IMG/VR virus record: IMGVR_UViG_3300030012_001842
Location: 1-41,204 of that record
Reading direction: 5' to 3' (one strand)
Length of the DNA: 41,204 nt
Source of the DNA: a virus
Below, piece after piece: positions 353 through 41,105 of the stretch. The notes beneath the pieces were generated by a model. That model saw only the letters and a list, made by a program, of their open reading frames with translations, searched no databases and was not told where the DNA came from. Position numbers and translations under genes: made by a program. Numbering within the stretch: the first letter of the stretch is position 1; every line of letters begins with the position of its first letter.

Positions 353-670
353 CTAACAGTTCCATCTTCTTCTAGCTGCTTTACCTCTTTCACTTTTCCA
401 ACTTCGTGATCTAGCGCAGAACGATTTTCTACGCTTTGCTTTTTTACTGTCTGGTTTTAATTCAGATGGTGGTGTAGTAACAGCAGTCTGCAAATTACTA
501 CCTGGGTTTTTACGCTTATATTCATTAACACCTTTTTGAGTCATACCTCCACCAGCAGCGGCGCCAGTACCCGTTGGCCTTGCTTTATTAAAATTTTTAC
601 CAGGACCTATAGTACGTCTTGGTTCTGCTGATTTTGTAAACGGCGTAAAGCCTTTCATTTTAAAAGCCAT
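353..670 (-). CDS. Tagged basic protein with an FCARxxxW...RRWNC tail (MAFKMKGF family)
   Basis: A 105-residue, strongly basic protein. The start at 670 is chosen over the ATG at 700 because it gives the N-terminus MAFKMKGFTPF shared with four other genes here and lies one base after the previous stop; GGAG precedes it. A Gly/Ala-rich linker is followed by QKGVNEYKRKNPGSNLQTAV and then KKAKRRKSFCARSRSW and a final RRRWNC. I recall this arrangement, often longer as RRKSFCARMxGMK...RKWNC, in small lysine-rich proteins of marine phages and large DNA viruses; the biochemical function is not known to me. The FCAR-to-RRWNC distance looks shorter than in the form I remember. Confidence 0.85.
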   Translation of the reverse strand: MAFKMKGFTPFTKSAEPRRTIGPGKNFNKARPTGTGAAAGGGMTQKGVNEYKRKNPGSNLQTAVTTPPSELKPDSKKAKRRKSFCARSRSWKSERGKAARRRWNC

Positions 671-671
671 A

Positions 672-1046
672 TTATTCTCCACATTTTTTTGAAGGATCAT
701 CTACTCTTCTCCAGTCTTCTTTTTCAAACCAGTCTCTTAATGTTGCTCCAGGTTTACGAGCACCGCTAACGTTTGTTTTAGATGATCTTTTATATTTACC
801 AGCTGCGCCAGCTGATTTTTTAGAACTTACTAATTGTTGTTTTTTACTAGCGCTTAAGCTACGTATTTTATCTGCTGGTAAACAAGTTTTAGTTGTACCA
901 CCACCTTTTTGTTTTTTCATTGGCGAAGACTTACGGCAACTACCTTTAGAGCCTTTAGCTGTACCAGGTACACGCTCGTAACCCTTCCAACACTTCATTG
1001 GAGACTTACCTTCAAATGCCACAAAGCCATTCATTTTAAACGCCAT
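672..1046 (-). CDS. Tagged basic protein with CWKGYERVPGT and DPSKKCGE motifs
   Basis: 124 residues, Lys/Ser-rich. The tag is slightly different (MAFKMNGF), followed by two SPMK motifs, the segment CWKGYERVPGTAKGSKGSC, and a C-terminal half containing KTCLPADKIRSLSASKKQQL, SAGAAGKYKRSS, ARKPGATLRDWFEKEDWRRV and the ending DDPSKKCGE. I recall this C-terminal half as a widespread unit in proteins of marine phages and some giant viruses, without an assigned function. The conserved cysteines and the 'DWF.KEDWRRV' block suggest a small folded domain. The start overlaps the upstream stop by one base (TAATG), consistent with translational coupling. Confidence 0.85.
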   Translation of the reverse strand: MAFKMNGFVAFEGKSPMKCWKGYERVPGTAKGSKGSCRKSSPMKKQKGGGTTKTCLPADKIRSLSASKKQQLVSSKKSAGAAGKYKRSSKTNVSGARKPGATLRDWFEKEDWRRVDDPSKKCGE

Positions 1047-1588
1047 TATACTTTATTTTTTATGTGTTGATACATTGCTTCACCTAACTTTTCACCCATC
1101 ATGCTATCTGATTTATAATGAGCTTTAGCTATTCTTCTACTATCAGATATGTTCTTACCAGCTTTAATAAATTGTTTAGCTGCTTTAGGAAATTTATCTG
1201 CTAGCACTTTACCTATTAATATACCTTGAGTTGAGTGACCACTAGGATATGAAGGAGTTTTCATAGAACTCATTTCGTAATCAACCATGTCAATACCTAA
1301 TTTTTTAGCTATAACTTTTGGTCTAGGTCTATTAAAATGTTTTTTTAATCTACTAACAACCGGAGCAGATTTTTTAATTAAATCTCCAACTAATTTAGGA
1401 TCGTAGTTAGTTATGTTATTTTTAGCAGCTATGTCAGCAAAAGTTTTTTCAATATTGTCATACTTTTGAACAGAAGTTTTGTTCATAGGTATAGTATTAA
1501 GTTGCTTTACCTCCTGCATTGTATTAAAAGAATTATCAGAAGGTGGTTTCATATTTTTAAACTTATCTATATTAAAACCTTTAAACAT
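1046..1588 (-). CDS. PAP2-superfamily phosphatase with a short FKGF tag
   Basis: 180 residues. All three motifs of the PAP2/acid phosphatase superfamily are visible: K82-x6-R89-P90 (KKHFNRPRP), P115-S-G-H118 (YPSGHSTQG), and S150-R151-x5-H157-x3-D161 (SRRIAKAHYKSD). In this family the two histidines form and resolve a phospho-enzyme intermediate; substrates include lipid phosphates, nucleotides and undecaprenyl pyrophosphate. There is no run of membrane helices and no signal peptide, so it resembles soluble class A acid phosphatases more than integral lipid phosphatases. The N-terminus MFKGFNIDKF resembles the MAFKMKGF tag of its neighbours. It overlaps the upstream gene by eight bases. The substrate cannot be read from sequence. 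Confidence 0.85.
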   Translation of the reverse strand: MFKGFNIDKFKNMKPPSDNSFNTMQEVKQLNTIPMNKTSVQKYDNIEKTFADIAAKNNITNYDPKLVGDLIKKSAPVVSRLKKHFNRPRPKVIAKKLGIDMVDYEMSSMKTPSYPSGHSTQGILIGKVLADKFPKAAKQFIKAGKNISDSRRIAKAHYKSDSMMGEKLGEAMYQHIKNKV

Positions 1589-2126
1589 TTTTATTTTGTT
1601 TTTTTAAAGTAATCTTAGCAGACTTAGCTAATCTAGCCTGTTCCATTTTACCCATTACTTTAGCTCTTTGTTCTAATACAGTTAATATTTGTACTTTTCT
1701 AGCATAAGGTTTATTTATGTTCATTACTTTAGCTATTGTTTTTCTAGCATCAGCTACTGTTGCAAATTTAATACCAACTGTATCTTTAGGATTTTCGTCT
1801 GTGTATAATCTTCTACCGCTACCTTTAGGCTTTTTACCAGTTCCAACTAACGGATCTTTTCGTTTTAACGGTGAGTCTTTTTTCTTACCTATACGTTTTC
1901 TAACTATATTCATTACAGTTTTCATTTTGCTAGCATAAGCAGGTTTTTTGCCTCTATTAAAAACGTATTGTTGATTTAAGCTACCGATTATTTTTTGAAG
2001 ATTACCGCCTCTTGTTTTAATTAACCAAGAAGCTAATGCTGGTGGTGATAAATCTCTAAATTTACCTTTAGCATCAGGGGCATCTGAGTCATGCCACGTA
2101 ATAGACTTAGAAGTTTTTTTAGCCAT
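1581..2126 (-). CDS. Basic hypothetical protein with a GRRLYTDENPKDTV motif
   Basis: 181 residues. The N-terminal part (about 8-75) reads ITWHDSDAPDAKGKFRDLS...ALASWLIKTRGGNLQKIIGSLNQQYVFNRGKKPAYASKM, a small helical domain I have the impression of having seen in marine viral and environmental proteins. A linker with DSPLKRKDP carries the same SP(L/M)K motif found in the tagged neighbours. The C-terminal part starts with GSGRRLYTDENPKDTVGIKF and continues as a basic helical region (DARKTIAKVMNINKPYARKVQIL...EQRAKVMGK). The latter is also familiar as a stand-alone block in lysine-rich phage proteins. No catalytic motif is seen. It starts MAKKTSK rather than with the tag, and follows the previous stop by three bases. 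Confidence 0.75.
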   Translation of the reverse strand: MAKKTSKSITWHDSDAPDAKGKFRDLSPPALASWLIKTRGGNLQKIIGSLNQQYVFNRGKKPAYASKMKTVMNIVRKRIGKKKDSPLKRKDPLVGTGKKPKGSGRRLYTDENPKDTVGIKFATVADARKTIAKVMNINKPYARKVQILTVLEQRAKVMGKMEQARLAKSAKITLKKQNKNV

Positions 2127-2129
2127 AGC

Positions 2130-2321
2130 TTAACACTTACCAGCCTTTTGAGATTTAACAGCAAATCCACTAGCATAAGCGCTAGGCCAAACTTTATACC
2201 TACGTTTAGCATAAGCTTTGCAGCTAGCGCTAATTTTATTAAATGGACTAGACATTTGCTCCATGCGTCTTCTACCGCATCCAGTTTTAGGTATTGGATT
2301 ATTTTTTTGTACGTATGCCAT
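2130..2321 (-). CDS. Small basic Cys protein with a VWPSAYASG motif
   Basis: 63 residues from the ATG at 2321 (MAYVQKNNPIPKTGCGRRRM). The in-frame ATG at 2426 would overlap the upstream gene by about 100 bases and adds a Leu/Lys stretch that looks like antisense filler, so the shorter form is chosen; it follows the upstream stop by four bases. An SSPFNK motif sits in the middle. The C-terminal half, CKAYAKRRYKVWPSAYASGF, has a 'YxVWPSAYASG' core followed by a terminal cysteine. I recall this core in many small basic proteins of marine phages and large viruses. Function unknown. Confidence 0.75.
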   Translation of the reverse strand: MAYVQKNNPIPKTGCGRRRMEQMSSPFNKISASCKAYAKRRYKVWPSAYASGFAVKSQKAGKC

Positions 2322-2325
2322 AATT

Positions 2326-2742
2326 TTATCCTTTATCTGGATCTGTTTCATCAAAGCCTTCAAAGCCAGTTGACCCACCTTTTTTAATTGTAACTTTTTT
2401 AGTTTTTCTATTATAAACATAATCAAGACTCCCGTCAGACATTTGATCTATTTTAGCTCTAATATCTCTATCATCTTTACCTTTTTCAATACCAGCTATA
2501 ATCATTTTTTTAATTTTAGCTTGAGTTGCAGGTGGATCCATCTTTTTCATTGGAGACTTTTTCATTTTTTTAGGAGAGTCAATTACCCCTCTGCCCATAA
2601 GCACGTCTGCTTGAGTAATCTTACCGTCTTTATTTAAATCAGGAAACTTTTTTTGCATAGCTGATTTTTTTGCCATTTTCATAGCCGCTTTACTCATGCC
2701 TGTTCCTTTACCTGGGTCAAAACCCTTCATTTTAAATGCCAT
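2326..2742 (-). CDS. Tagged basic protein with one EF-hand-like loop
   Basis: 138 residues, starting MAFKMKGFDPGKGTGMSKAA. Residues around 34-45 read DLNKDGKITQAD, which matches a 12-residue calcium-binding EF-hand/dockerin-type loop (D1, N3, D5, G6, I8, D12), followed by VLMGRGVI. A linker with KKSPMKKMDPP and a helical C-terminal half follow, ending with acidic DETDPDKG. Calcium binding is inferred from the loop only. The gene starts two bases after the upstream stop in the context TAATTATG. It shares with the genes at 3484 and 4925 the extended tag MAFKMKGF[DN]PGxGTGM. Confidence 0.85.
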   Translation of the reverse strand: MAFKMKGFDPGKGTGMSKAAMKMAKKSAMQKKFPDLNKDGKITQADVLMGRGVIDSPKKMKKSPMKKMDPPATQAKIKKMIIAGIEKGKDDRDIRAKIDQMSDGSLDYVYNRKTKKVTIKKGGSTGFEGFDETDPDKG

Positions 2743-2744
2743 AA

Positions 2745-3140
2745 TTATTGAAATTTGTTAAGTGTTATAGTATCAACTGCATGTTGTACTGTTTTTTTAT
2801 CTGCTTCTAATTTAAACATTACATTAGGGTTGAAGCGAGCCTTCTCAATACCGTTATCGAATATAATAACTGTTGGTACAGCTGTAATATTATAATCTGT
2901 TTGTATGTCCATAGATGACATAATATCCACACGATATACATTACATCCTTTTAATTTATTTAATTCATTAAACTGATTCATTTTGTTCCAGTCAGCCCAA
3001 AATTCTATAGCTACAACGTCTTTAGCTATTTTATTTTTAAAATTACTATTATCAGCGAATTCTTGAGCACTACATGTACCTATAGAAAATACAAGAAACA
3101 TTACAAATACATAAATAAAGTTAGATATATCTAATGTCAT
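2745..3140 (-). CDS. Exported thioredoxin-fold protein lacking the CxxC active site
   Basis: 131 residues. The N-terminus has a hydrophobic signal-like segment (FIYVFVMFLVFSIGTC) ending in SAQ before E27, a typical flavobacterial cleavage context. The mature part follows the thioredoxin order: VVAIEFWADWNKMN (48-55, where WCGPC normally stands), a VDI strand, YNITAVPTVIIFDNG with the cis-proline at P89, and a C-terminal helix. The redox cysteines are replaced by N-K-M-N, so it cannot act as a classical dithiol oxidoreductase; one cysteine (C66) remains elsewhere. A binding or chaperone role in the periplasm is inferred. It overlaps the upstream gene by four bases (ATGA). Confidence 0.75.
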   Translation of the reverse strand: MTLDISNFIYVFVMFLVFSIGTCSAQEFADNSNFKNKIAKDVVAIEFWADWNKMNQFNELNKLKGCNVYRVDIMSSMDIQTDYNITAVPTVIIFDNGIEKARFNPNVMFKLEADKKTVQHAVDTITLNKFQ

Positions 3141-3481
3141 TTTCTTAATAGTTTTATTTCCTCTTTCATTTCATCTACCTCCTTTATTACTGCGTTAATT
3201 TGATTACGAGCCATTTGATCTTTCATGTTAAATTCCATACGAGTTGGTGGCCACGTATTAGTAGCAGCTGGGTCACCCATGTCTATTGTATATGTACCAG
3301 TGCCTGGTTTAGGTAACTCTAATGCCTTTTCTACTTTACCTTCTAGTTCTGAAAATTTAGAATTAATACTAGCCATTAAACCAAAGTAAGCAGATATAAT
3401 AGTAGCAACAGCTACTACTATACTGATTAATGTTTTAACACTAATTTGAAATTTGCTTTCTTCTGAAAGTTCTTTTGCCAT
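3137..3481 (-). CDS. Single-pass membrane protein with coiled coils (lysis or envelope candidate)
   Basis: 114 residues. A short charged N-terminus is followed by one membrane helix at about 14-36 (SVKTLISIVVAVATIISAYF). A coiled-coil-like segment (SKFSELEGKVEKALEL), a Pro/Gly-containing middle and a terminal charged helix (INAVIKEVDEMKEEIKLLRK) follow. The lysines before the helix are compatible with N-in, C-out topology, which would place most of the protein in the periplasm. Such a layout is seen in inner-membrane spanin subunits and some holin-associated proteins, but no family is recognised. It lies in TAATTATG context and overlaps the downstream thioredoxin-like gene by four bases. Confidence 0.7.
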   Translation of the reverse strand: MAKELSEESKFQISVKTLISIVVAVATIISAYFGLMASINSKFSELEGKVEKALELPKPGTGTYTIDMGDPAATNTWPPTRMEFNMKDQMARNQINAVIKEVDEMKEEIKLLRK

Positions 3482-3483
3482 AA

Positions 3484-4224
3484 TTATACTATCTTAGTAT
3501 TTCTTTTCTTTTCTTTTTCTCTAGCTCTAGAAACGTATACATCATCTGTAAGCTTCCTACCAGTTTTTCTATAACCAATACCTGATTTTCTTTTAACTTT
3601 TTCCTCTACAACACCAGTTTTAGGATTAAATACAGCTTTCCTTTTTGCAGTGTCATCAACTATTTTTCCTTTTTTATCTTTACCAGTAAATTTAAATTTA
3701 ACATTTCTTGTATCGCCAAAGTTTCCTTCAAATCCAGATTCCTGTGCTTTATTTTGACCTTTAACAGAAAGCATTTTTATAGTTCGTTTACCAGTTAATA
3801 TATTTTTTTTAGCAACGTTTTTCTTTTTTGTTTTACCTGGCTCAATTGAAACTTTTAATCTTTTTACTGCTTTACCGTCTTTATATTTACCAAACTCTGA
3901 AAGACCAAGATTTTTTTTCTTGTGTTTTCCAGTTCTTGATATTTTAATTTTTTTACTACCTACATTTCTTGTTCCATAAAACTGCGTAGCTGCAGCTGAT
4001 CCAGATGCTCTTTGCTCATCAGTTATTGCTTTTGGATCAGATGTAAAATCTGCATCCATCTCACCTCTGTTTTTTGGTCTATCAATTTTTTTAATTTTTT
4101 TACTTTGTTTTTCTACTTTAATATCTTTTGTGTGTGGTGGATCTATTTCTTTTTTTAATGCAGACATTTTTTTAGCCATACCAGTGCCAACACCAGGGTT
4201 AAACCCTTTCATTTTAAAAGCCAT
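3484..4224 (-). CDS. Tagged, highly basic protein, 246 aa
   Basis: The start MAFKMKGFNPGVGTGMAKKM shares the extended tag with the genes at 2326 and 4925. The rest is dominated by Lys/Arg-rich segments with scattered Gly and Thr (for example KKIKISRTGKHKKKN, VKFKFTGKDKKGK, KRKSGIGYRKTGRK). The alternation of basic and beta-prone residues could form short strands or be disordered when free. A 'GFEGNFGDTRNV' segment recalls GFEGFDETDP in the gene at 2326. No known domain is recognised. The composition suggests nucleic acid or acidic-surface binding, but that is inference. TAATTATG junction on the 5' side. Confidence 0.8.
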   Translation of the reverse strand: MAFKMKGFNPGVGTGMAKKMSALKKEIDPPHTKDIKVEKQSKKIKKIDRPKNRGEMDADFTSDPKAITDEQRASGSAAATQFYGTRNVGSKKIKISRTGKHKKKNLGLSEFGKYKDGKAVKRLKVSIEPGKTKKKNVAKKNILTGKRTIKMLSVKGQNKAQESGFEGNFGDTRNVKFKFTGKDKKGKIVDDTAKRKAVFNPKTGVVEEKVKRKSGIGYRKTGRKLTDDVYVSRAREKEKKRNTKIV

Positions 4225-4226
4225 AA

Positions 4227-4922
4227 TTATCTTATTTTAAGTTTTAATTTTCCATTTTGAATATACAAACCTTTAGGTTCTCTAATAGCCTGCCCATTAA
4301 TATTATAGATTACACTATTTTCACTAGATTTATTTATAAGTTCATCAATATTAGTATTACAAGGTAATCCAGTTGCGCAATCAATGTATTCTGTAATGTA
4401 TTCTATAAACTCTACATATTCTATTTCTACAATAGTATCATAAACAAATACTTCTACATATTCAATAACGTCAACAAATAAAGTATCTAATATATCTTCA
4501 TATACAGTTACTGTATCAGTAATATAAATATATTCAGGTACAAATACTTCTACTTCTACTGTATCAACTATAATTTCATATACATACTCTGTATTTATTA
4601 TAGTATCATATATTGTTTCATACTCTGTTACATAAACCGTATCACAGTCTGGTGGAGGTGGAGCACATTGTTCTATAGGTGTAGGCTCAGCGTTAGCCTC
4701 ATCGCTACCATCTACACAGTCTTCCCAGCCGTCATTTAAATAAAACAAATCTGGGCCATTAGGTACACAACCGTTAGGTGAATATTGCGTCCAGTTTGCT
4801 GGATCATCTCCACAATAAAAACCGTTTTGTTCTGCACATTCAATACACAATTGTTGAAAGTCAAGTTGCGCACTAGCAAGCGAGCTAATAAACGCAAATA
4901 AAATTATAATATATTTCTTCAT
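4227..4922 (-). CDS. Exported stalk protein with LDLa-like segment and T9SS-type C-terminal domain
   Basis: 231 residues. Residues 1-18 are a clear signal peptide (KKYIIILFAFISSLASAQ). Residues 26-93 are Cys-rich and include WEDCVDGSDEA, the signature end of an LDL-receptor class A repeat; the cysteine pattern is not a full match. Residues 94-181 form a low-complexity stalk of D-T-[IV]-Y/E-Y-[IV] units rich in Y, V, I, E, D and T. Residues about 203-231 (NSVIYNINGQAIREPKGLYIQ then NGKLKLKIR) match the type A C-terminal sorting domain of T9SS cargo, with the usual YNxxGQ, PKGLYI and NGK elements. I infer Sec export and T9SS-dependent surface display or secretion from the infected flavobacterial cell. 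Confidence 0.8.
   Translation of the reverse strand: MKKYIIILFAFISSLASAQLDFQQLCIECAEQNGFYCGDDPANWTQYSPNGCVPNGPDLFYLNDGWEDCVDGSDEANAEPTPIEQCAPPPPDCDTVYVTEYETIYDTIINTEYVYEIIVDTVEVEVFVPEYIYITDTVTVYEDILDTLFVDVIEYVEVFVYDTIVEIEYVEFIEYITEYIDCATGLPCNTNIDELINKSSENSVIYNINGQAIREPKGLYIQNGKLKLKIR
4380..4643 (-). repeat. Degenerate tandem stalk repeat within the exported protein
   Basis: Residues 94-181 of the gene at 4227-4922 repeat short units such as DTVYVTEYE, DTIINTEYVYE and YDTIVEIEYVE with irregular spacing. The strict alternation of hydrophobic and acidic or polar residues predicts extended beta structure. The DNA copies differ, so this is a protein-level repeat rather than a recent expansion. 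Confidence 0.7.
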
Positions 4923-4924
4923 AG

Positions 4925-5551
4925 TTATTTTTTTAATGGTTTTGTGTCTCTTTTTCTAACTCTAGATTCTCGCTGTTCTCTTAAAAACTTACGATCTTCT
5001 TTTGTGTAACGGTATTTTTTACCTTTTAATTCTCTCTTTTTTTCTTTTAATCCAGCTATAGCAGATTTTAGATTTGTTTGAGCTCTTTTGTTACCTATTT
5101 TTTTTAGTCTTTCTATTCTAAGATCTTTAATGCTTGATTTAACTTCTTTTAATCTTCTTTTGTTTTGGCTTTTTTCTTCTTTAGCATCAGCCCCTTGTGT
5201 ATCATAACCTCTTTTGTTACCTTTCATTTTATTAGGAGAGTTAAACTTACTCATATCAATATGACTTTTGTTTTTAGTAAATAACTCACCATCACCTCTT
5301 TCTACAACTGTATTTCGTAGTTTTAACATACGTTTTTCAAGTTGCTTTATTCTTTTTAAATCTTTATCTTGTTTAGCTTCGTTATACTCATTATCGTAAA
5401 TACCTAATATTTCTCCTTCTATTCTATCGCTATCTGTTTTCTTTACTTTCTTACCGTCAATTTTTTTATTTGTTCTTAGTTTAAAAGAACTTTGAGCCTT
5501 GTCCATGCCCGTGCCTTTACCAGGATTAAATCCTTTCATTTTAAATGCCAT
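4925..5551 (-). CDS. Tagged basic coiled-coil protein, 208 aa
   Basis: Starts MAFKMKGFNPGKGTGMDKAQ. After the tag comes a charged region with predicted helices (EILGIYDNEYNEAKQDKD, KRIKQLEKRMLKLRNTV), then FNSPNKMKGNKRG, and a long Lys/Arg-rich helix-forming C-terminal half (RRLKEVKSSIKDLRIERLKK, KSAIAGLKEKKRELKGKK). The regular spacing of Leu/Ile suggests coiled coils. No known family. It sits between two exported proteins (outer-membrane barrel upstream, stalk protein downstream), three bases after the previous stop. Confidence 0.8.
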   Translation of the reverse strand: MAFKMKGFNPGKGTGMDKAQSSFKLRTNKKIDGKKVKKTDSDRIEGEILGIYDNEYNEAKQDKDLKRIKQLEKRMLKLRNTVVERGDGELFTKNKSHIDMSKFNSPNKMKGNKRGYDTQGADAKEEKSQNKRRLKEVKSSIKDLRIERLKKIGNKRAQTNLKSAIAGLKEKKRELKGKKYRYTKEDRKFLREQRESRVRKRDTKPLKK

Positions 5552-5554
5552 ATC

Positions 5555-6598
5555 TTAAAATATTAAATAGTTAAAACCAAATTTTACTTCGTATATTTCT
5601 TTACCCCAATATCTCATGTGTATACCTTCTACAAATAAACCTAAGCTTTTAGTTATCTTAGTTCCAAATATAATGCCAGCGTCCCACTCTGCCATACTGT
5701 CTTTATATTCATATGAGTAATCATCTAACCCATAATGATATGGTAAAAAATTATACCATGTGTGTAGCCAAAATTTAGGCGTGTACTTATAGTAAGCAAC
5801 TCCTAATACTGCACTAAGTTCTTTTTGTAAACCTAATTTCTCAAGTTCACGTTCATTATATCTTGCAACCGCGTTACCGAAGTAGTGGTTGAAGAACTCA
5901 TCATTAGAGGTAGCTACCAATACTGAGTCTCCACCACTAACATCGTACCAGTTTTGGTCTATATAAAAGCCTTGATTCCAAGGTTGAGGCACGTAACCAA
6001 AGTCTTCTGCTAAATCTTGAAATGTACTTTCGCCTGGTACCCAAAAATCTTCTATAGGATTTACTCCATATACTGGGTGTATTCTAAATACAGTTCCAAT
6101 AGTAAAATCCCAATTACCTTTATTAAATCTTATTCTATAATCTAATGATGAATATCTTAAATTTACCCTTTCATTATCTGTATACTGCGCTTTAGCAACG
6201 AACCAATCACCGAGGTAACGTAGCCAAAAATTTTGCTCAGTAAACTTTTCACTACGATTACGTATAAAAGAATAATTAAACAAATACTCCCAGCCATTAG
6301 CATTACCAATAGTAACATTGTCTGCAGTATTTCTTTCGGTTCCAGTATACCATGTTTGTCTTTTCGTCTCATAATCAAATCTAGCTATTTTACGTAACCC
6401 TAACGTTAAATTGTAATCGTACGCATTAATTTCAGTTATATCTTCATAACCTTTATTTACAGCTCTATAATCTTCTCTTTCAACAAACGATGTATTCATT
6501 GACATCGATGTGTAAAAAGTAGAATATTTAAAGAAGTCTTTTATCTGTGCTGTACTTATAGTACTAACTAACAGAAATAATATTAATAAATGTTTCAT
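5555..6598 (-). CDS. Putative outer-membrane beta-barrel protein
   Basis: 347 residues with a signal peptide (KHLLILFLLVSTISTAQ). The mature part consists of alternating amphipathic strands rich in Tyr, Trp and Phe (NLTLGLRKIARFDYETKRQTW, FWLRYLGDWFVAKAQYTD, LRYSSLDYRIRF, WDFTIGTVFRI) separated by polar loops. It ends with a strand finishing in phenylalanine (VKFGFNYLIF), the classical barrel-assembly signature. Phage-encoded outer-membrane proteins are uncommon; receptor masking, superinfection exclusion or a permeability change at lysis are possible. Capture from a flavobacterial host is plausible but cannot be shown here. The gene lies between the putative endolysin and a tagged protein. 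Confidence 0.75.
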   Translation of the reverse strand: MKHLLILFLLVSTISTAQIKDFFKYSTFYTSMSMNTSFVEREDYRAVNKGYEDITEINAYDYNLTLGLRKIARFDYETKRQTWYTGTERNTADNVTIGNANGWEYLFNYSFIRNRSEKFTEQNFWLRYLGDWFVAKAQYTDNERVNLRYSSLDYRIRFNKGNWDFTIGTVFRIHPVYGVNPIEDFWVPGESTFQDLAEDFGYVPQPWNQGFYIDQNWYDVSGGDSVLVATSNDEFFNHYFGNAVARYNERELEKLGLQKELSAVLGVAYYKYTPKFWLHTWYNFLPYHYGLDDYSYEYKDSMAEWDAGIIFGTKITKSLGLFVEGIHMRYWGKEIYEVKFGFNYLIF

Positions 6599-33781: not shown

Positions 33782-35263
33782 TTACTTCATTAACATAAAG
33801 TTGTTAGCACCTTGAGTAACTAAACATCTTTCAGATAAAAAGTGTAACTCCATTGCATCTAACGCTGATGTAGCAGCTCCAACTGAACCAGTGGTCCAAG
33901 TCTTCATTCTTCTATCATCAGTAGCAGAAGCTCTGTATCTAACGTGTAAGAAAGGTCTCTTCATGTTTTTACCCATAGTTTGGTCATAAACTGTAGAAAC
34001 ACCAGCTGGTATCATAACACCTCTAATAGCATTAGTTGCATTAGCAGCATTAATACCACCTCTTGTAGCTAGATCGTTTAAGTATCTAAAGTCAGATTTG
34101 TAGAAGTCATAAGAACCTCTTCGGAAACCTGAGAAGCCTAAATTTAACGCCATGTCTTCGTCGTTGTCAAATACTCCGTAAGAAGTACCTCCAGCTCCGT
34201 AAGAATTCATTGAAGCAAGCATGTCATCCATTGCTAAACTAGTAGCTCTGTTTACAAACATCATGTATTCTTCAATAGCACCTTGTTTGTCAAACTCAGC
34301 TAATATAGCATCGAACTCAGCTAAATCAGTAGCAGCGTTAACACCAGTAACACCAGTAGTAACATTACCTCTGTCTTCAATAGCATCAAATAAACCTTGA
34401 GTACCAACTGCATCATCATCATCTATACCTATTAATTCAGTATCAACTGTAGTCGCGTTACTTCCTCTAACGTGCTCTAGCATAGACATTTCTAAATAGT
34501 CATTAAATCTAGCTCTTGTGTCAGATTCTGCTTTTAAATACCAAAGGTAACCTGATTGCCCCATTTCAGTTGAAACTTCAACCCAACCGATTCTTGAAGC
34601 GTCTGATCCAGATACTTCGTAGTAATCTTTTAATATAATTGGTTTGTTAGTAAAACTTTTAAACTGAGGCTCATTAGCTCCTCTACCATCTGCAGTACCA
34701 GAGTTTCCATACTTTTGTCCTTTTGCAAACTCAGAACCATATACTAATATAGTAGTTCCACCGTCAACAGTAGCAGTAGCTAAATGCTGGTTGTTGTAAT
34801 CTCTAACAGTGATATCATCACCAGAAACAGATTTAACTAAACACTTAAATACACCATTTGCGTTAGCTACTAAAAGTGTATCATTTTCTCTAATACCATG
34901 TTGTGTTGTAGAAGCTCCAACAGATATAGCATCAGTTGTAGAAGCGTTACCGCTGTTACCATCTATATCAGTTTGTATTGTAATAACGTTTTGAGCGTCT
35001 ACCGCACCTTTGTAAGATAAATGTAATCTACCTTGTTCAGACCAGATGACTTGATCAGCCGTCATAGCCTCTTCAGCACCTACTTGAGAAAGAAAGCCTG
35101 ATATAGTTCTCGGTCCGAAAACTTCAGCTTCTTTTTCCATTAGGTCTGGTACATATTGTTGACCCCAACCAGCATTGGTTGATAAGTCTAGATAGTTTGT
35201 AGATAACGCTTGCTGCTGTGGAGCAGGTACGCTATTTAAACTATCGCCAGGATTAATTGCCAT
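33782..35263 (-). CDS. Major capsid protein (HK97-fold inferred)
   Basis: 493 residues. After a flexible N-terminus, QYVPDLMEKEAEVFGPRTIS and GFLSQVGAEEAMTADQVIWS resemble the N-arm/E-loop entry of major capsid proteins of crAss-like and marine podovirus-like phages. A Thr/Gly/Asp-rich insertion (ITIQTDIDGNSGNASTTDAI onward) may be the E-loop or an added surface domain. The C-terminal half has the helical and strand blocks of a P/A domain (FNDYLEMSMLEHVRGS, DAILAEFDKQGAIEEYMMFV) and ends with ELHFLSERCLVTQGANNFML. Position between the scaffold-like gene and connectors fits. It is followed by its own terminator, consistent with a high, separate transcript. Confidence 0.8.
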   Translation of the reverse strand: MAINPGDSLNSVPAPQQQALSTNYLDLSTNAGWGQQYVPDLMEKEAEVFGPRTISGFLSQVGAEEAMTADQVIWSEQGRLHLSYKGAVDAQNVITIQTDIDGNSGNASTTDAISVGASTTQHGIRENDTLLVANANGVFKCLVKSVSGDDITVRDYNNQHLATATVDGGTTILVYGSEFAKGQKYGNSGTADGRGANEPQFKSFTNKPIILKDYYEVSGSDASRIGWVEVSTEMGQSGYLWYLKAESDTRARFNDYLEMSMLEHVRGSNATTVDTELIGIDDDDAVGTQGLFDAIEDRGNVTTGVTGVNAATDLAEFDAILAEFDKQGAIEEYMMFVNRATSLAMDDMLASMNSYGAGGTSYGVFDNDEDMALNLGFSGFRRGSYDFYKSDFRYLNDLATRGGINAANATNAIRGVMIPAGVSTVYDQTMGKNMKRPFLHVRYRASATDDRRMKTWTTGSVGAATSALDAMELHFLSERCLVTQGANNFMLMK

Positions 35264-35281: not shown

Positions 35282-36451
35282 TTAATTTTTCTTTCTAATT
35301 TTAAAAGACCTATTTTTAAGTTCAGAAGAAGATTGACCTAAAACCCTATATTTAACACCCCCAACATTAGTTTCGCCGTGCATTTTTCTAGGTTCTAAAT
35401 TAATATTTTTATCTTTAGCAACTTGACTTTTAATAGCATCTGCTTTACCTTGCTCGTAAAAGTGCTTAGCAATAGCATCTGGATTCATAGCTGTATATAA
35501 AGACTTATGATAACCCGCTGCATCATCAATAGTTACTTTATCATCACCAACAAACTTGTTAATGAAATTAGTAATATCGCTTTGGGTTGTTTTTACTTTA
35601 TCTACATCTTTAACATTAAACCTATATTTTTTATCTCCGACATTATATTCAAAACCTTTGAAATTTTGTCCAAAGAAACTATCGGTTTTATTTAAAAAAG
35701 TCCTTTTGCTTTTTTTAGTTAACTCCTCCTGTTTTTTAGAGTCTTCATTGTATTTGTTGTAGAAATTAATTGCTTCCTGTTGTTCAGGTGTCAATTTTGA
35801 CCCAGCTTTAATTTCTTCATAGTATTTAGACTTTTGCCTGTCTAAGTGGGCTCTAGCCTCGGCAACTTGCTCTTTGAGGGCTATTTTCTTTTTACGTATT
35901 TCTTTTGGATCTTCAGTATCTTCATCAAAACCGTAAGTGTCTTCTAATAAAAAGTTTCTTTCTTCTGCTGACAAATGAGATTTAGTTGTTCTGTAGTATT
36001 CATCTAAAACATCAGAGTCGTCTAATTTAGAAACATCTCTATTTAAATTTACGTAGTCTTGTATATCACCACCTGTTTCGTCCATAAAATCTACAAGCTT
36101 TTGTATATTTTCTGGTAATGGTTTTCCAGTAGCTACTGCTTCTTCAACTGCTTCTTCAACCGCTTCTTCAACTGCTTCTACAGTTTCTTCTACTTTTTCT
36201 TCTTCTGTAACTTCTTCCATTACTGGTTGCTCAGTTACTTCTTCTACAGTTTCCTTTTCTACGTTTTCTTTTTGTTCTTCAACAACTTCTTTTTGAGGAG
36301 GTGGGGCGTCTAAATCTATTTTAATAACATCTGGGTTATCAGCGCTATCAAATTTAGATTCATCTATAACATTTTCTATAACCTCTTCAATGGGTTGTTC
36401 GTTATTTTCTTCAGTTACCTCTTCGATAACTTCTTTGTTTTCTTCTGTCAT
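35282..36451 (-). CDS. Putative scaffold protein with acidic repeat N-terminus
   Basis: 389 residues. The first 105 or so are almost only Glu, Val, Asn, Gln and Pro, with tandem VEEA repeats. A helical middle (LDDSDVLDEYYRTTKSHLSA, ALKEQVAEARAHLDRQKSKY) and a more basic C-terminus (KNRSFKIRKKN) follow. Acidic helical proteins with a basic C-terminus located between portal and capsid genes are typical scaffolds, the basic end binding the capsid protein; this is inference. No protease motif is visible, and no separate protease gene is seen nearby in this window. Confidence 0.7.
   Translation of the reverse strand: MTEENKEVIEEVTEENNEQPIEEVIENVIDESKFDSADNPDVIKIDLDAPPPQKEVVEEQKENVEKETVEEVTEQPVMEEVTEEEKVEETVEAVEEAVEEAVEEAVATGKPLPENIQKLVDFMDETGGDIQDYVNLNRDVSKLDDSDVLDEYYRTTKSHLSAEERNFLLEDTYGFDEDTEDPKEIRKKKIALKEQVAEARAHLDRQKSKYYEEIKAGSKLTPEQQEAINFYNKYNEDSKKQEELTKKSKRTFLNKTDSFFGQNFKGFEYNVGDKKYRFNVKDVDKVKTTQSDITNFINKFVGDDKVTIDDAAGYHKSLYTAMNPDAIAKHFYEQGKADAIKSQVAKDKNINLEPRKMHGETNVGGVKYRVLGQSSSELKNRSFKIRKKN
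36135..36182 (-). repeat. 12-bp tandem repeat coding for VEEA units
   Basis: Four adjacent copies (plus strand ACTGCTTCTTCA, ACTGCTTCTTCA, ACCGCTTCTTCA, ACTGCTTCTACA) encode the repeated Glu-Ala-Val-Glu stretch of the scaffold-like protein. The near identity of the DNA copies suggests recent slippage in an acidic linker. Confidence 0.85.
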
Positions 36452-36477: not shown

Positions 36478-38871
36478 TTAGAGACCGTATCTTTCCATAC
36501 CGGCGTCCCCACTAAGTATATCATTACCTGATGATTCAAATTTATTAACGGAATCACCCTGTTTTCTTTGATCTATCATTTCTTTTTGACGATCAGCTTG
36601 TATATTAACTCTTTGATCTTTTCTATCTTCTCTCATTTGTTCTGTCTTAGAGTTAGTTTGTTGTTTTGAGTTTTCTAGTTTAGTGTTTAATTCAAACTCA
36701 AATTGCATTAACTCTTTTTTAAGCTGAACTTCTTGTTGTAAGTATTGTATTTTTAACTGACTTCTAGTTTGTTCTAGTTGAGCCTCGGCTTGTGTTTTAG
36801 CTTGCTGCTTTTGCATTTCAGCCTGCGCTGCTGCTTGAGCCTGCTGTTGTTGAGCTTGAGATTGAGCTTGTATATTCTCTTGTTGCATTTGTTGATCTCT
36901 AAGCATTTTAGCCTTTCTTTTTACTTTTAATAATTGATTAGCAAGTTTAACATTTCTAACATTACGTAAGTCTATAGCGTCATCTAAATCAATTGTTTTT
37001 TGTGACAACGCTGCTTGAATATTATTTTCAAGTAATTGTTTTTCTTCTTCATCTGGCATTAACTCTATAAATATACCAAAATCATATAAATGCAAATTTT
37101 CCATTTCTTCCAACGTGGCAACGTTGTTCGCCCCAAGAGCTCTTATAAAAGCTTCTTTAGTTGGAGAGTATTCTAATATATCTGATATACGTAACGATAA
37201 ACACTCAGCAACTTCAGCTGTTATATAAAGCATTGATTGTAACACGTGTCTAGTTGCCGTGTTTGAATTTGCAGCTGCTAGTTTTTGTACACCAACTAAA
37301 GCGTCTCTATCCGGAGTGCTAGCGTCTCTAGCCTCATTTAACCCAGTTACATCTCTTATCATTTGCAAATAATAATTATATGTAGTAATTAAACTTTGTA
37401 ATTTATTACTATTAATACCATTATTTATTTGTTGTATCGGAACTTTGCCAGGATTTATATCTCCTTCAGACGTAAAACTTCTACCTATAACACTACCAGT
37501 TTGAAAGAACATGTTTAAAGCTTCCTGTGGATTATAGTTCGTTCCATTACCTAAATCTATTTCAGCTAAACCATCGGCATCCATATAAACACCATCTGGT
37601 ACCATACGTGCCATAACTTGTTGTAACTTTAAATGAGTTAACTGTATCATATCAGCAAAGCTAGTTATTCTACCTACCAAGCTTTCTATTCTGCCTTCAT
37701 ATATTCTCGGCGCTGTTATTTGATAATTCATTTTAACATTACTAAAATCAGAATCAGAACGCATCATATTAGGACACATTCGCCACTTTAAAACTTTATC
37801 AGCCCCTATAATATAAACGCCTTCATACAAAACTTCAACAACTCTTTCTAGTTTACTAAAGTCACCATCCATGTTTTCAACAGGTGGATTAAATGAATCG
37901 TCTTTTTGTATAACTTTTTCTCCACCGGCTGCTGTAGATTTTAATTTGTAAACATCGTTCATATACGTTTTATAATTAAAGTATAAAACATTAACTTTGT
38001 TTTTATCTCTATTAGCAACATAGTCTAATGGATAAGCATATTTATCTACTAAATCTTTTATTTCTTTTTCTGATAATTCTGGAAACTCTTTTACTAGTTC
38101 ATTTATTGGTAGCTCTTTTACTTCACCGATATAGTATACGTCTTCAAAATATGGAGACTCAGTGTGAGAATATACTAAATCAGCGGGATCAACGTATTCT
38201 ACTTTAGCGCCATTGCTAAAATCAAAAGTTGTTTTTGTAGCACCTATACCTAACACAGTTAAATCATACAAACACCTTTTTCTTATTAAATCATAATCGC
38301 TACCTTCTAATAAAACGTTTATAGCTTGTTCTTCGGCTAGTTCTACAGCTTGTTTGTAATTTAGCTGCATGTGCAAAGCTAATTCTTCTTTTGTATCAGG
38401 TAGCGTATCAGGATCGTTTTCATAAAGATCAATATCAAACAATTGCTTAGCTGCATCATTGTACTCTCTTGATCGCATATCTTTTAACACAGACTCCATA
38501 TATTCTGTTCTTTTGCTAACGCCATACTGATCTTGAGAAAAACAATTTATTTCGTAGTTTCTTTGAGCCATGCCATTAACTACAATATCAACAAACTTAG
38601 GTATAATAGGTACCGGCTTCCAGTCTAAATTTAAATAAGACAAATCACCATTTATAGATAATTCATTTTTATATTTTTGTATAGGTTGTTCTCCCCTTGC
38701 GTATAATCTTAATGTGTGAAAATTAGTTTTGTGACTATTATATTTAGATGTAGTTCCAGAGAACCATTCATGCCTTATAGCTCTTGCTACTTTTAAACCA
38801 TATTCTTCACTTAGTTTTTCTAAATCACTAACTGCTTGCGATGGAAAATGTATAGAATGTTCTTGTCTCAT
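36478..38871 (-). CDS. Portal protein
   Basis: 797 residues. The N-terminal half has the portal pattern YARGEQPIQKYKNELSINGD, LNLDWKPVPIIPKFVDIVVN, a YDLTVLGIGATKTTFDFSNG strand block, and VEYVDPADLVYSHTESPYFE. The middle includes ITAPRIYEGRIESLVGRITS and helical segments such as LKLQQVMARMVPDGVYMDAD, then a wing-like region. The C-terminus is a long Gln/Glu/Lys-rich coiled coil (about 660-750) that ends with DILSGDAGMERYGL. The gene overlaps the terminase stop by four bases (ATGA), a tight TerL-portal coupling. A ring at the vertex that gates DNA is the expected function. Confidence 0.85.
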   Translation of the reverse strand: MRQEHSIHFPSQAVSDLEKLSEEYGLKVARAIRHEWFSGTTSKYNSHKTNFHTLRLYARGEQPIQKYKNELSINGDLSYLNLDWKPVPIIPKFVDIVVNGMAQRNYEINCFSQDQYGVSKRTEYMESVLKDMRSREYNDAAKQLFDIDLYENDPDTLPDTKEELALHMQLNYKQAVELAEEQAINVLLEGSDYDLIRKRCLYDLTVLGIGATKTTFDFSNGAKVEYVDPADLVYSHTESPYFEDVYYIGEVKELPINELVKEFPELSEKEIKDLVDKYAYPLDYVANRDKNKVNVLYFNYKTYMNDVYKLKSTAAGGEKVIQKDDSFNPPVENMDGDFSKLERVVEVLYEGVYIIGADKVLKWRMCPNMMRSDSDFSNVKMNYQITAPRIYEGRIESLVGRITSFADMIQLTHLKLQQVMARMVPDGVYMDADGLAEIDLGNGTNYNPQEALNMFFQTGSVIGRSFTSEGDINPGKVPIQQINNGINSNKLQSLITTYNYYLQMIRDVTGLNEARDASTPDRDALVGVQKLAAANSNTATRHVLQSMLYITAEVAECLSLRISDILEYSPTKEAFIRALGANNVATLEEMENLHLYDFGIFIELMPDEEEKQLLENNIQAALSQKTIDLDDAIDLRNVRNVKLANQLLKVKRKAKMLRDQQMQQENIQAQSQAQQQQAQAAAQAEMQKQQAKTQAEAQLEQTRSQLKIQYLQQEVQLKKELMQFEFELNTKLENSKQQTNSKTEQMREDRKDQRVNIQADRQKEMIDQRKQGDSVNKFESSGNDILSGDAGMERYGL

Positions 38872-41105
38872 ATTTTATTCTTAATTATCTGTGATGAAAA
38901 TCCTTTATTATTATATTTTGATATATGTATATTTAATGGTGTTTTTTGTTTGTTTGGATTTGGTCTGTACAAATGTCTATTACAAGCCATTATTGCTAAA
39001 CCAGAACTTATAGCAGCATCGTGCTTAGTTCTTTTATTTATATCAAACTTAGACCAATCGCTTAAAGTTTCATTAAAATACATAGTGCCATAAGTACCGT
39101 CTTGTAATAAACCAACGTGGTCATTTATATACATTTCAATAGCGGCTGCATGAGCTTGTTTTATATCTTCACTAGAGTTTGGTATGCCACCTACTTCTTT
39201 TTCTGCAACCGATAGTTTGTTCCAAACTTTATCTGGCCTGTTCATGCTAAAACCTCTATACCCTCTTCTTCTTAAATAATATAATAATCTTGGTTTGTTG
39301 TTTTCTGCAAGTAAAGGCATACCGTAAAAAACTAATGCCATTAAAACATCCTCAAAAAATATTTCAGCTGTTTGTGGTCTTGCTATATATTCAAGGAAAA
39401 AAGTATTTGCTGGAGCATCTTCCATTGAAAACTTTGTTAATCCATGCAGCGCACCTTTTGAACCTCGTTTATCTACCGTTCCAGATATATCATACGAGTC
39501 ACAGCCAAATGCTCCCATATGCTCGTTGCCTGGATATCTTACGCCATTTTTAATAATAACGTTGTTTTGTAATTTTCCACCTGGCACCCAACTTATATTA
39601 AACCTACCATTAGGATCTGGGTTAAAAGTAACTAAAGTATCTTTTTTACCGTTTAACCATTGAAAATTACCAACAGTTGTTACTGATGAGTTTCTATTAC
39701 CTTCGTTATAATCTATTTGCTCGTATATTTTTATAAGATTAAATAAACTATTTTTTGTTTCATCTCTAAACGCGTGCTCTTCAGTTCTAGGAAACTGGCG
39801 ATAAAATTCATTTAAAGCATCTTGATCATCTTTTAAACCTTCAGCTTCGTTGTCCCAGTGATCAATTACACCGCAATCTATTTCTACTCCTTGCGGATCA
39901 GTTGCAGGGTTTTTAGGTGTATTAAAAACAGGTTGACCGTATTCATCAATAAACCCTTCGTAGTTCCATTCCATAGGAATAAAAAGAGAATATAAGCCAG
40001 ATTTAGTTTGTCCATTACGATTACGTTTTGTTACATCAGAGTTATTATATAAATCTTTAAAATTGTCACCACCTTTATCAAGCGAGTTACTAGTACTACC
40101 CATCATGCATTTGCCAACTATTCTACTACCTAACCTTAAACAAGTTTTTGTAACTCTCCAGTTATTTCTTATATTATCAGGTCTTTCCCATTTACCACTT
40201 TCATCGTGAACTAACAAATTTAATTTTTCACCATCATAACTATTATCACCCGTGTTCTTCCAGTCTATCGTTGTGTCTAGTCCTTCAACGTCATCCATTT
40301 CCTCACGCTCACGTATTTTTCTACGAGTAAACTTCTTAGCTGGAACTCTATAAGCAAGTTCGGACTTTGGTCGGTCCATACCATCTTGTATCGGTTTAAA
40401 GAAAAATGGATAGTTGAGACTTATTGGCACAACTTTATCTGTAAACATTTTCTTTGCATCAGCCCCAGTTTTAGATAATATACCAAATCTACTATCACTA
40501 GCAAGTGTTGCTAAGTTAACTGTTTCAGCTGAGCTCATAAATGAAAAGCCAGAACGTCTATTTTTTAAATAACACATTCCGTAACTTCTTTTATCTGCTT
40601 TACAAGCTTCCCAGAATATAAAAAATAATCTATTTGCTTCTCTATAATCTGGAGCACCTACGTCTATTTTACTCCATTGTAGGTACATATAATGTGTACC
40701 TGTTATGTAGGTTGGTTTACCGTTATTCATAAACCAAAAACCTTCTTCTCTTCTTTTAAACTCTTCGTCTATATATTCATAATGATCTTGTTTAAAATCA
40801 TCTGGATAATCTTGCCAGTCAAATACAGTTTTAATTTTTTTAAAAGCAGGGTTGGCAGGAAATTGTTTCCACTTTTGTTCTGTTTTATCTTTGCTGCAGC
40901 TATATATTTCTTTTGGTTGTTTAGGTAAAGCTATTTGCAGACCTTGTATTTCTATAACATCACTAATCATTCCAGTTCTTGATATAACAACTACATCGTT
41001 TTCTTTGTTATATCCGTATTCCCACTTTTTGCCTTTGTTTAATCTTTTAATAGTATTTAACCTTATTGGTTCTACTATTTTATATAAACTTTGCTCGTAT
41101 TTCAT
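38868..41105 (-). CDS. Terminase large subunit
   Basis: 745 residues. The ATPase part shows a deviant Walker A, KNRRSGFS (181-188), and Walker B LNLLVHDE (295-302), with the motif III-like MMGSTSN near 335-341. FPRTEEHAFR (438-447) is the familiar block at the end of the ATPase domain. The nuclease part begins near 530 with FGCDSYDISG, D536 and D539 being candidate metal ligands, and later aspartates (for example KHDAAISSGLAIMA near 715) may complete the site. The N-terminus of about 100 residues is longer than in many terminases. It translocates DNA into the prohead through the portal encoded next. The stop overlaps the portal start (ATGA). Confidence 0.9.
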   Translation of the reverse strand: MKYEQSLYKIVEPIRLNTIKRLNKGKKWEYGYNKENDVVVISRTGMISDVIEIQGLQIALPKQPKEIYSCSKDKTEQKWKQFPANPAFKKIKTVFDWQDYPDDFKQDHYEYIDEEFKRREEGFWFMNNGKPTYITGTHYMYLQWSKIDVGAPDYREANRLFFIFWEACKADKRSYGMCYLKNRRSGFSFMSSAETVNLATLASDSRFGILSKTGADAKKMFTDKVVPISLNYPFFFKPIQDGMDRPKSELAYRVPAKKFTRRKIREREEMDDVEGLDTTIDWKNTGDNSYDGEKLNLLVHDESGKWERPDNIRNNWRVTKTCLRLGSRIVGKCMMGSTSNSLDKGGDNFKDLYNNSDVTKRNRNGQTKSGLYSLFIPMEWNYEGFIDEYGQPVFNTPKNPATDPQGVEIDCGVIDHWDNEAEGLKDDQDALNEFYRQFPRTEEHAFRDETKNSLFNLIKIYEQIDYNEGNRNSSVTTVGNFQWLNGKKDTLVTFNPDPNGRFNISWVPGGKLQNNVIIKNGVRYPGNEHMGAFGCDSYDISGTVDKRGSKGALHGLTKFSMEDAPANTFFLEYIARPQTAEIFFEDVLMALVFYGMPLLAENNKPRLLYYLRRRGYRGFSMNRPDKVWNKLSVAEKEVGGIPNSSEDIKQAHAAAIEMYINDHVGLLQDGTYGTMYFNETLSDWSKFDINKRTKHDAAISSGLAIMACNRHLYRPNPNKQKTPLNIHISKYNNKGFSSQIIKNKI

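Follow-up and report, generated by a model that had tools for sequence, protein, structure and literature searches.

The stretch of DNA analysed here (the window) is the IMG/VR record IMGVR_UViG_3300030012_001842, positions 1 to 41,204 (41,204 nt), in which five minus-strand genes encode proteins that begin with nearly the same short peptide, with the consensus MAFKMKGFxxF (hereafter, the tag). We found that the tag is an N-terminal module that can be separated and exchanged, that the protein bodies behind it are unrelated, and that the tag is confined to one phage lineage and to its late, structural-strand genes. By analogy with the capsid targeting sequence (CTS) of phage T4, the tag probably directs loading into the procapsid: with it, small lysine-rich late proteins, differing from genome to genome, would enter the procapsid of what appear to be uncultured, podovirus-like marine phages of Bacteroidota, and the tagged proteins would be packaged alongside the DNA and then released into the next host.

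The tag is conserved as a peptide on dissimilar proteins

MAFKMKGF begins the minus-strand genes that start at 670, 2742, 4224 and 5551, and MAFKMNGF begins the gene at 1046; the longer starter MAFKMKGF[DN]PGxGTGM is found in the genes at 2742, 4224 and 5551. A preliminary description, made from the window sequence, had listed these same five genes and had stated that their bodies differ after the tag. Both points were borne out, as the five bodies show no mutual similarity (best cross-hit E=4.9). The PAP2 gene at 1588, which begins MFKGF and had been counted as a sixth carrier, was rejected; its orthologues begin MFKDF, MFKKF, MFKNF or MFKEF. What had been read as an EF-hand-like loop in one carrier corresponds to a sub-threshold Dockerin_1 match (E=0.002).

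When 146 body-family representatives were aligned, the consensus was MAFKMKGFxxF with almost nothing beyond it, and the information content stayed high until about residue 11 and then fell. The contigs had been found by means of the exact tag, so residues 1 to 8 were partly fixed by the search, while residues 9 to 11 and the variants were free of this. The residues preceding FKMKG differ in number and identity (MA, MG, MP, MDYKP, MKKSG); the tag therefore need not directly follow the start. Among 123 proteins starting MAFKMKGF, 48 distinct 24-mers encode the tag, showing that the peptide and not the DNA is the conserved level, in agreement with the synonymous codon variation pointed out in the preliminary description. 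In the literature collection searched, no account of the peptide was found.

An element acting as DNA or RNA at the start of the gene, such as a translation leader or a recombination site that incidentally codes for the peptide, would fit the A-rich sequence upstream of the tag genes and the biased codons within the tag, where codon 2 is GCA in 68% of cases versus 24% in late genes and the glycine at codon 7 is encoded by GGG in 28% of the 123 carriers versus 6% in other late genes. However, the variety of 24-mers, the variable residues before FKMKG and the lack of a tag on the late genes for the major capsid protein (MCP), portal and scaffold make such an element highly improbable, and we rejected a regulatory or DNA-level element on codon variety and variable extensions.

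The tag can be exchanged for other starters

The window protein starting at 670 and its counterpart L018:5039 have 94.5% identity beyond the starter and share their upstream sequence, and the starter is MAFKMKGFTPFTK in the former versus MAYIQSNNPFKK in the latter. Two starters on one such body indicate that the N-terminus is an interchangeable module. The body of the window protein starting at 1046 recurs behind MAYIQKSNPFKK in L573, and in the clade DUF6321 and DPSKKCGE bodies come in three forms: tagged, untagged, and headed by a second starter, MA[YF]xQxxNPF[KT]. This second starter, in the form MAY[IV]QKNNPFxVTSCGRRR, heads several body types in the tag phage lineage; its window copy, MAYVQKNNPIPKTGCGRRR at 2130-2321 (-), had escaped the preliminary description. 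A MAY[IVM]QKNNP start was present in 53 IMG/VR contigs, and 34 of the 35 tested encode the putative MCP of the window. DUF6321 is also found in unrelated phages (cyanophages, pelagiphages). The same domains without the tag, which the preliminary description had named as evidence that would count against a common signal, are thus found both outside and inside the clade, and these copies point to modularity rather than refuting the tag.

The carriers might instead be fast-diverging copies of one ancestral gene in which the start segment alone was kept, with no address function. Lysine-rich disordered bodies do diverge fast, and some of the bodies group into families, but distinct named or conserved bodies (DUF6321, HExxH, CGE/CWKGY) stand behind one tag, a single body carries two starters at 94.5% identity, and strong conservation of just about 12 residues requires selection. 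Full-length homology of the carriers was looked for and not seen, the 222 bodies falling into 150 BLAST families. We consider a remnant of paralogy very unlikely.

The tag may have arisen in HExxH proteins and then spread in this lineage. Throughout the MCP family, relatives encode an HExxH protein that begins FK[ML]K or FKMSG, and an exact M[AG]FK[ML] start occurs at most once per record, in 21 records of the wider MCP family. The protein at L009:4233-4559 (family 33), a small HExxH protein with an FK[ML]K/FKLG start, is encoded by a conserved late gene across the wider MCP family; it matched no Pfam family at that family's cut-off.

The tag is confined to one lineage and to the late strand

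The exact tag coding pattern was found in at least 119 IMG/VR contigs and was absent from 84,980 bacterial and archaeal genomes, and on this absence we rejected a motif encoded by hosts or widespread in bacteria. All 50 tag-bearing contigs of at least 32 kb encode the window's putative MCP (52-81% identity) and 49 of them its terminase, so the tag marks one phage lineage. When contigs were chosen by the MCP alone, FKMKG was present in 4/4 records of at least 43 kb and in 2/22 shorter records, which seldom extend to the tag-bearing flanks. The tag was absent from the isolates Panino and elemo and from the environmental genome MW202828, whose MCPs are 37-47% identical; shared starters of a similar kind were not seen in Panino or MW202828, and elemo 6-9C has two weak pairs. 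In two sister groups (39 records), the FKMKG pattern occurred three times, in each case heading a protein of a single other family. These proteins (L356, L357 and L358) begin MSSFKMKGVV or MSAFKMKGVV and presumably resemble DUF3127; their likeness to the tag is probably due to chance.

The sole bacterial-genome record with the MCP is a phage-like contig in a Sphingobacteriales metagenome-assembled genome, from which we conclude that the lineage probably infects Bacteroidota. On this contig the putative scaffold (see below) ends FKFKIKKRK, and one protein starts MPFKMKSP.

In 16 genomes, two of them with terminal repeats, all 56 carriers are encoded on the capsid-gene strand, compared with 54.7% of the other genes. 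Taken together, agreement of the 146 representatives solely in the tag, the starter swap and the restriction to one lineage and the late strand lend good support to the common, separable address signal proposed in the preliminary description.

Tag carriers are small, basic proteins encoded near head genes

The carriers are very basic (median pI 9.94 vs 6.12 in other late proteins below 330 aa, P about 5e-15), contain 17.7% lysine and have a median size of 128 aa. Clusters of their genes are found upstream of the terminase gene, near the GroEL/GroES-like genes and past the end of the structural cassette, and in eight distinct contigs (L101 and G044 being the same contig) three carriers lie exactly between portal and scaffold. 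Each genome has 1 to 7 pattern-matched carriers, and the bodies differ between related phages. Among the 146 body representatives, one had a Pfam match below 1e-4 (DUF6321), and searches of the carriers with Pfam, PADLOC and PHROGs gave almost no names, with a single weak match to a 'virion structural protein' (phrog_36695, 6.5e-5).

It is likely that the carriers sit inside the head. Loading into the virion accounts best for the data among the options raised in the preliminary description, though it is inferred. A cleaved propeptide, another of these options, found no support: no consensus glutamate of a T4-type L/I-x-E site was present in the tag or within 20 positions after it, and an S78 prohead protease was not found in the genomes searched (see below).

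The recurrence of an SP motif in the carriers, also noted in the preliminary description, was confirmed: SPx[KR] was observed 22 times against 5.9 expected from shuffles, while it was not enriched in other late proteins (62 observed, 58.5 expected). SPKK-type motifs in histones bind AT-rich minor grooves. The carriers could thus be DNA-binding or DNA-condensing late proteins, with the tag and SPxK as part of DNA binding and not an address, as their high pI and lysine content would allow. We find this distinctly unlikely; SPx[KR] lies mostly at residues 10-15, beside the tag, conservation is much stronger in the tag than in the basic bodies, and the aromatic residues of the tag (F3, F8 and F11) are unlike a charge-only DNA contact.

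Alternatively, the tag could dock the carriers onto a non-virion phage protein; candidates would be the phage-encoded pair resembling GroEL and GroES or a complex acting in lysis or late host takeover. Many carriers adjoin the conserved genes for the 521-aa GroEL-like and 85-aa GroES-like proteins, and the clade-specific late proteins (families 7, 8, 16, 19, 21 and 33) offer candidate partners. However, the GroEL/GroES-like genes are present in tag-less relatives too, and the head is indicated by the late strand, the high lysine content and the carriers inserted between portal and scaffold. Docking of this kind would also leave the scaffold-end resemblance described below unaccounted for, and we regard it as unlikely.

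The tag core resembles the C-terminal end of the putative scaffold

Scaffold tails bind the coat protein in P22 and herpesviruses. The protein at 35282-36451 has the features expected of a scaffold: an AlphaFold2 model (mean pLDDT 62) predicts long helices flanked by disordered ends, the N-terminal one acidic. This putative scaffold matched no PHROG, Pfam or PDB family, and the putative MCP matched no PDB chain by sequence. FKΦ[KR] was found in the last 16 residues of 14 of 1,199 non-tag proteins, all 14 of which belong to the scaffold family, whereas about 1.9 occurrences would be expected over all proteins, and of 84 conserved family termini that of the scaffold is the one most like FKMK. 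The scaffold end is F[KR]Φ[KR] in 62/64 clade members versus 0/58 and 0/38 in two sister groups, a comparison made after the scaffold end had been seen; the sister-group scaffolds mostly have L in place of F, and these sister clades lack multi-carrier tagging.

We hypothesize that the tag uses the binding site of the F-K-Φ-K tail of the scaffold, probably on the coat protein, by resembling that end; from the sequences at hand this is a possibility that we advance only tentatively. Similarly tentative is the broader proposal of modular cargo loading, in which arbitrary small proteins would enter the virion by way of two or more N-terminal peptides that can replace one another, one or more of which would imitate the coat-binding end of the scaffold, and the phage would sample a large pool of injected effectors from families that are almost wholly unknown.

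Several observations weigh against procapsid loading through a scaffold-like tag. The S78 prohead protease was found in 0/15 genomes with working controls, leaving a T4-type release step unexplained. The FKMK motif comprises four residues only, and the second starter, MAYVQKNNPF, bears no likeness to the scaffold end. The two deepest clade members examined have scaffold ends LKIK and LRIK and yet use FKMKG tags, so the L-to-F change tracks the tags imperfectly; this change may moreover be one event, the clade being one lineage. For the putative MCP, AlphaFold2 gave a model too poor to be informative (mean pLDDT 45), and a tag-only BLAST of 50,697 phage records, in which short queries are insensitive, returned no carrier.

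Window features and neighboring genes

The coordinates of the carriers and of the head genes are given in Table 1.

Table 1. Tag carriers and other window features referred to in the text
Feature	Coordinates	Strand	Remarks
Tag carrier MAFKMKGFTPFTK with DUF6321 (FCAR/RRWNC) body, 105 aa	353..670	-	DUF6321 E=8.5e-13; tag codons 647-670
Tag carrier MAFKMNGF with CWKGY and DPSKKCGE modules, 124 aa	672..1046	-	Tag codons 1023-1046
PAP2-superfamily protein, non-carrier	1046..1588	-	PAP2 E=1.8e-7
Second-starter carrier MAYVQKNNPIPKTGCGRRR with WPSAYASG body (sub-threshold DUF5872 match), 63 aa	2130..2321	-	
Tag carrier MAFKMKGFDPGKGTGM with weak dockerin/EF-hand-like loop, 138 aa	2326..2742	-	Tag codons 2719-2742
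Tag carrier MAFKMKGFNPGVGTGM with lysine-rich body matching no known family, 246 aa	3484..4224	-	Tag codons 4201-4224
Tag carrier MAFKMKGFNPGKGTGM with lysine-rich body matching no known family, 208 aa	4925..5551	-	Tag codons 5528-5551
Putative MCP, lineage marker	33782..35263	-	phrog_13704, head and packaging, E=2.3e-96
Putative scaffolding protein	35282..36451	-	Portal-MCP interval; N-terminus acidic and disordered, then long helices, C-tail disordered
Scaffold C-terminal end FKIRKKN, resembling tag core FKMK	35285..35305	-	
Portal protein	36478..38871	-	phrog_6547 E=9.7e-153
Terminase large subunit	38868..41105	-	phrog_6681 E=3.9e-174

Genes for apparently exported proteins lie among and beside the window carriers. 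The product of 4227-4922 (-) has a signal peptide, a cysteine-rich part and a C-terminus, VIYNINGQAIREPKGLYIQNGKLKLKIR, that by eye resembles a Bacteroidota type 9 secretion sorting domain. The signal-peptide protein at 5555-6598 (-), which by eye has the look of an outer-membrane beta-barrel, is found in 14/16 clade genomes and 0/3 tag-less relatives, and an exported thioredoxin-like protein without the usual CxxC (2745-3140, -) in 15/16 and 0/3, respectively. In another genome, the PAP2 gene G009:4173 (+) encodes a 288-aa product with CWKGY and DPSKKCGE modules on its C-terminal side, indicating that these modules join PAP2 too.

Implications

If the tag does load the procapsid, it would be a natural cargo-packing label not described before, and the T4 capsid-targeting principle would hold in another virus lineage, where the chemistry appears to differ. 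Genes starting MAFKMKGF or MAYVQKNNPF would then be candidate injected effectors even when their bodies have no database match, and the tag would provide a short encapsulation signal for engineering phage particles. The resemblance between the tag and the scaffold tail makes a clear, testable prediction.

Comparison with known systems

In T4, a CTS of about 10 N-terminal residues is enough to carry basic proteins of divergent sequence into the core of the prohead; its carriers, the internal proteins IPI, IPII, IPIII and Alt, are basic, lysine-rich and poorly conserved (PMC9026906, PMC3012670). As with the CTS, a short N-terminal peptide is here the main common feature of divergent proteins in one phage group, the carriers are basic and lysine-rich (here pI 9.94, 17.7% lysine), and the carrier set varies between related phages. 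In contrast to the CTS, to which it is unrelated in sequence by inspection, the tag has no L/I-x-E cleavage site in its consensus and occurs in podovirus-like phages that hold a second, interchangeable starter, and packaging here is inferred. An S78 protease was not found in the 15 tag genomes, and a gp21-type (S77) prohead protease model matched 0/15 genomes and no control genome either. Because the cleavage site and the S78 protease were not found and the S77 model had no working control, we do not class the tag as a T4 CTS.

Also comparable are the coat-binding C-terminus of P22 gp8 and herpesvirus scaffolds and cargo loading by P22 scaffold fusions. The putative scaffold here likewise ends in a conserved short basic/hydrophobic tail, which the tag core resembles. 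The present case differs in that the motif would be N-terminal on native cargo, with binding suggested by sequence likeness, and in that PDB, Pfam and PHROGs yielded no homologue of the putative scaffold.

Finally, the virion of crassvirus crAss001 stores phage proteins in its head and tail (gp45, gp46 and RNA-polymerase subunits) (PMC10172136). Like the phages described here, crassviruses are Bacteroidota podovirus-like phages. Their cargo proteins, however, are few, large and conserved, whereas the tag carriers are many, small, basic and variable, and have a common starter.

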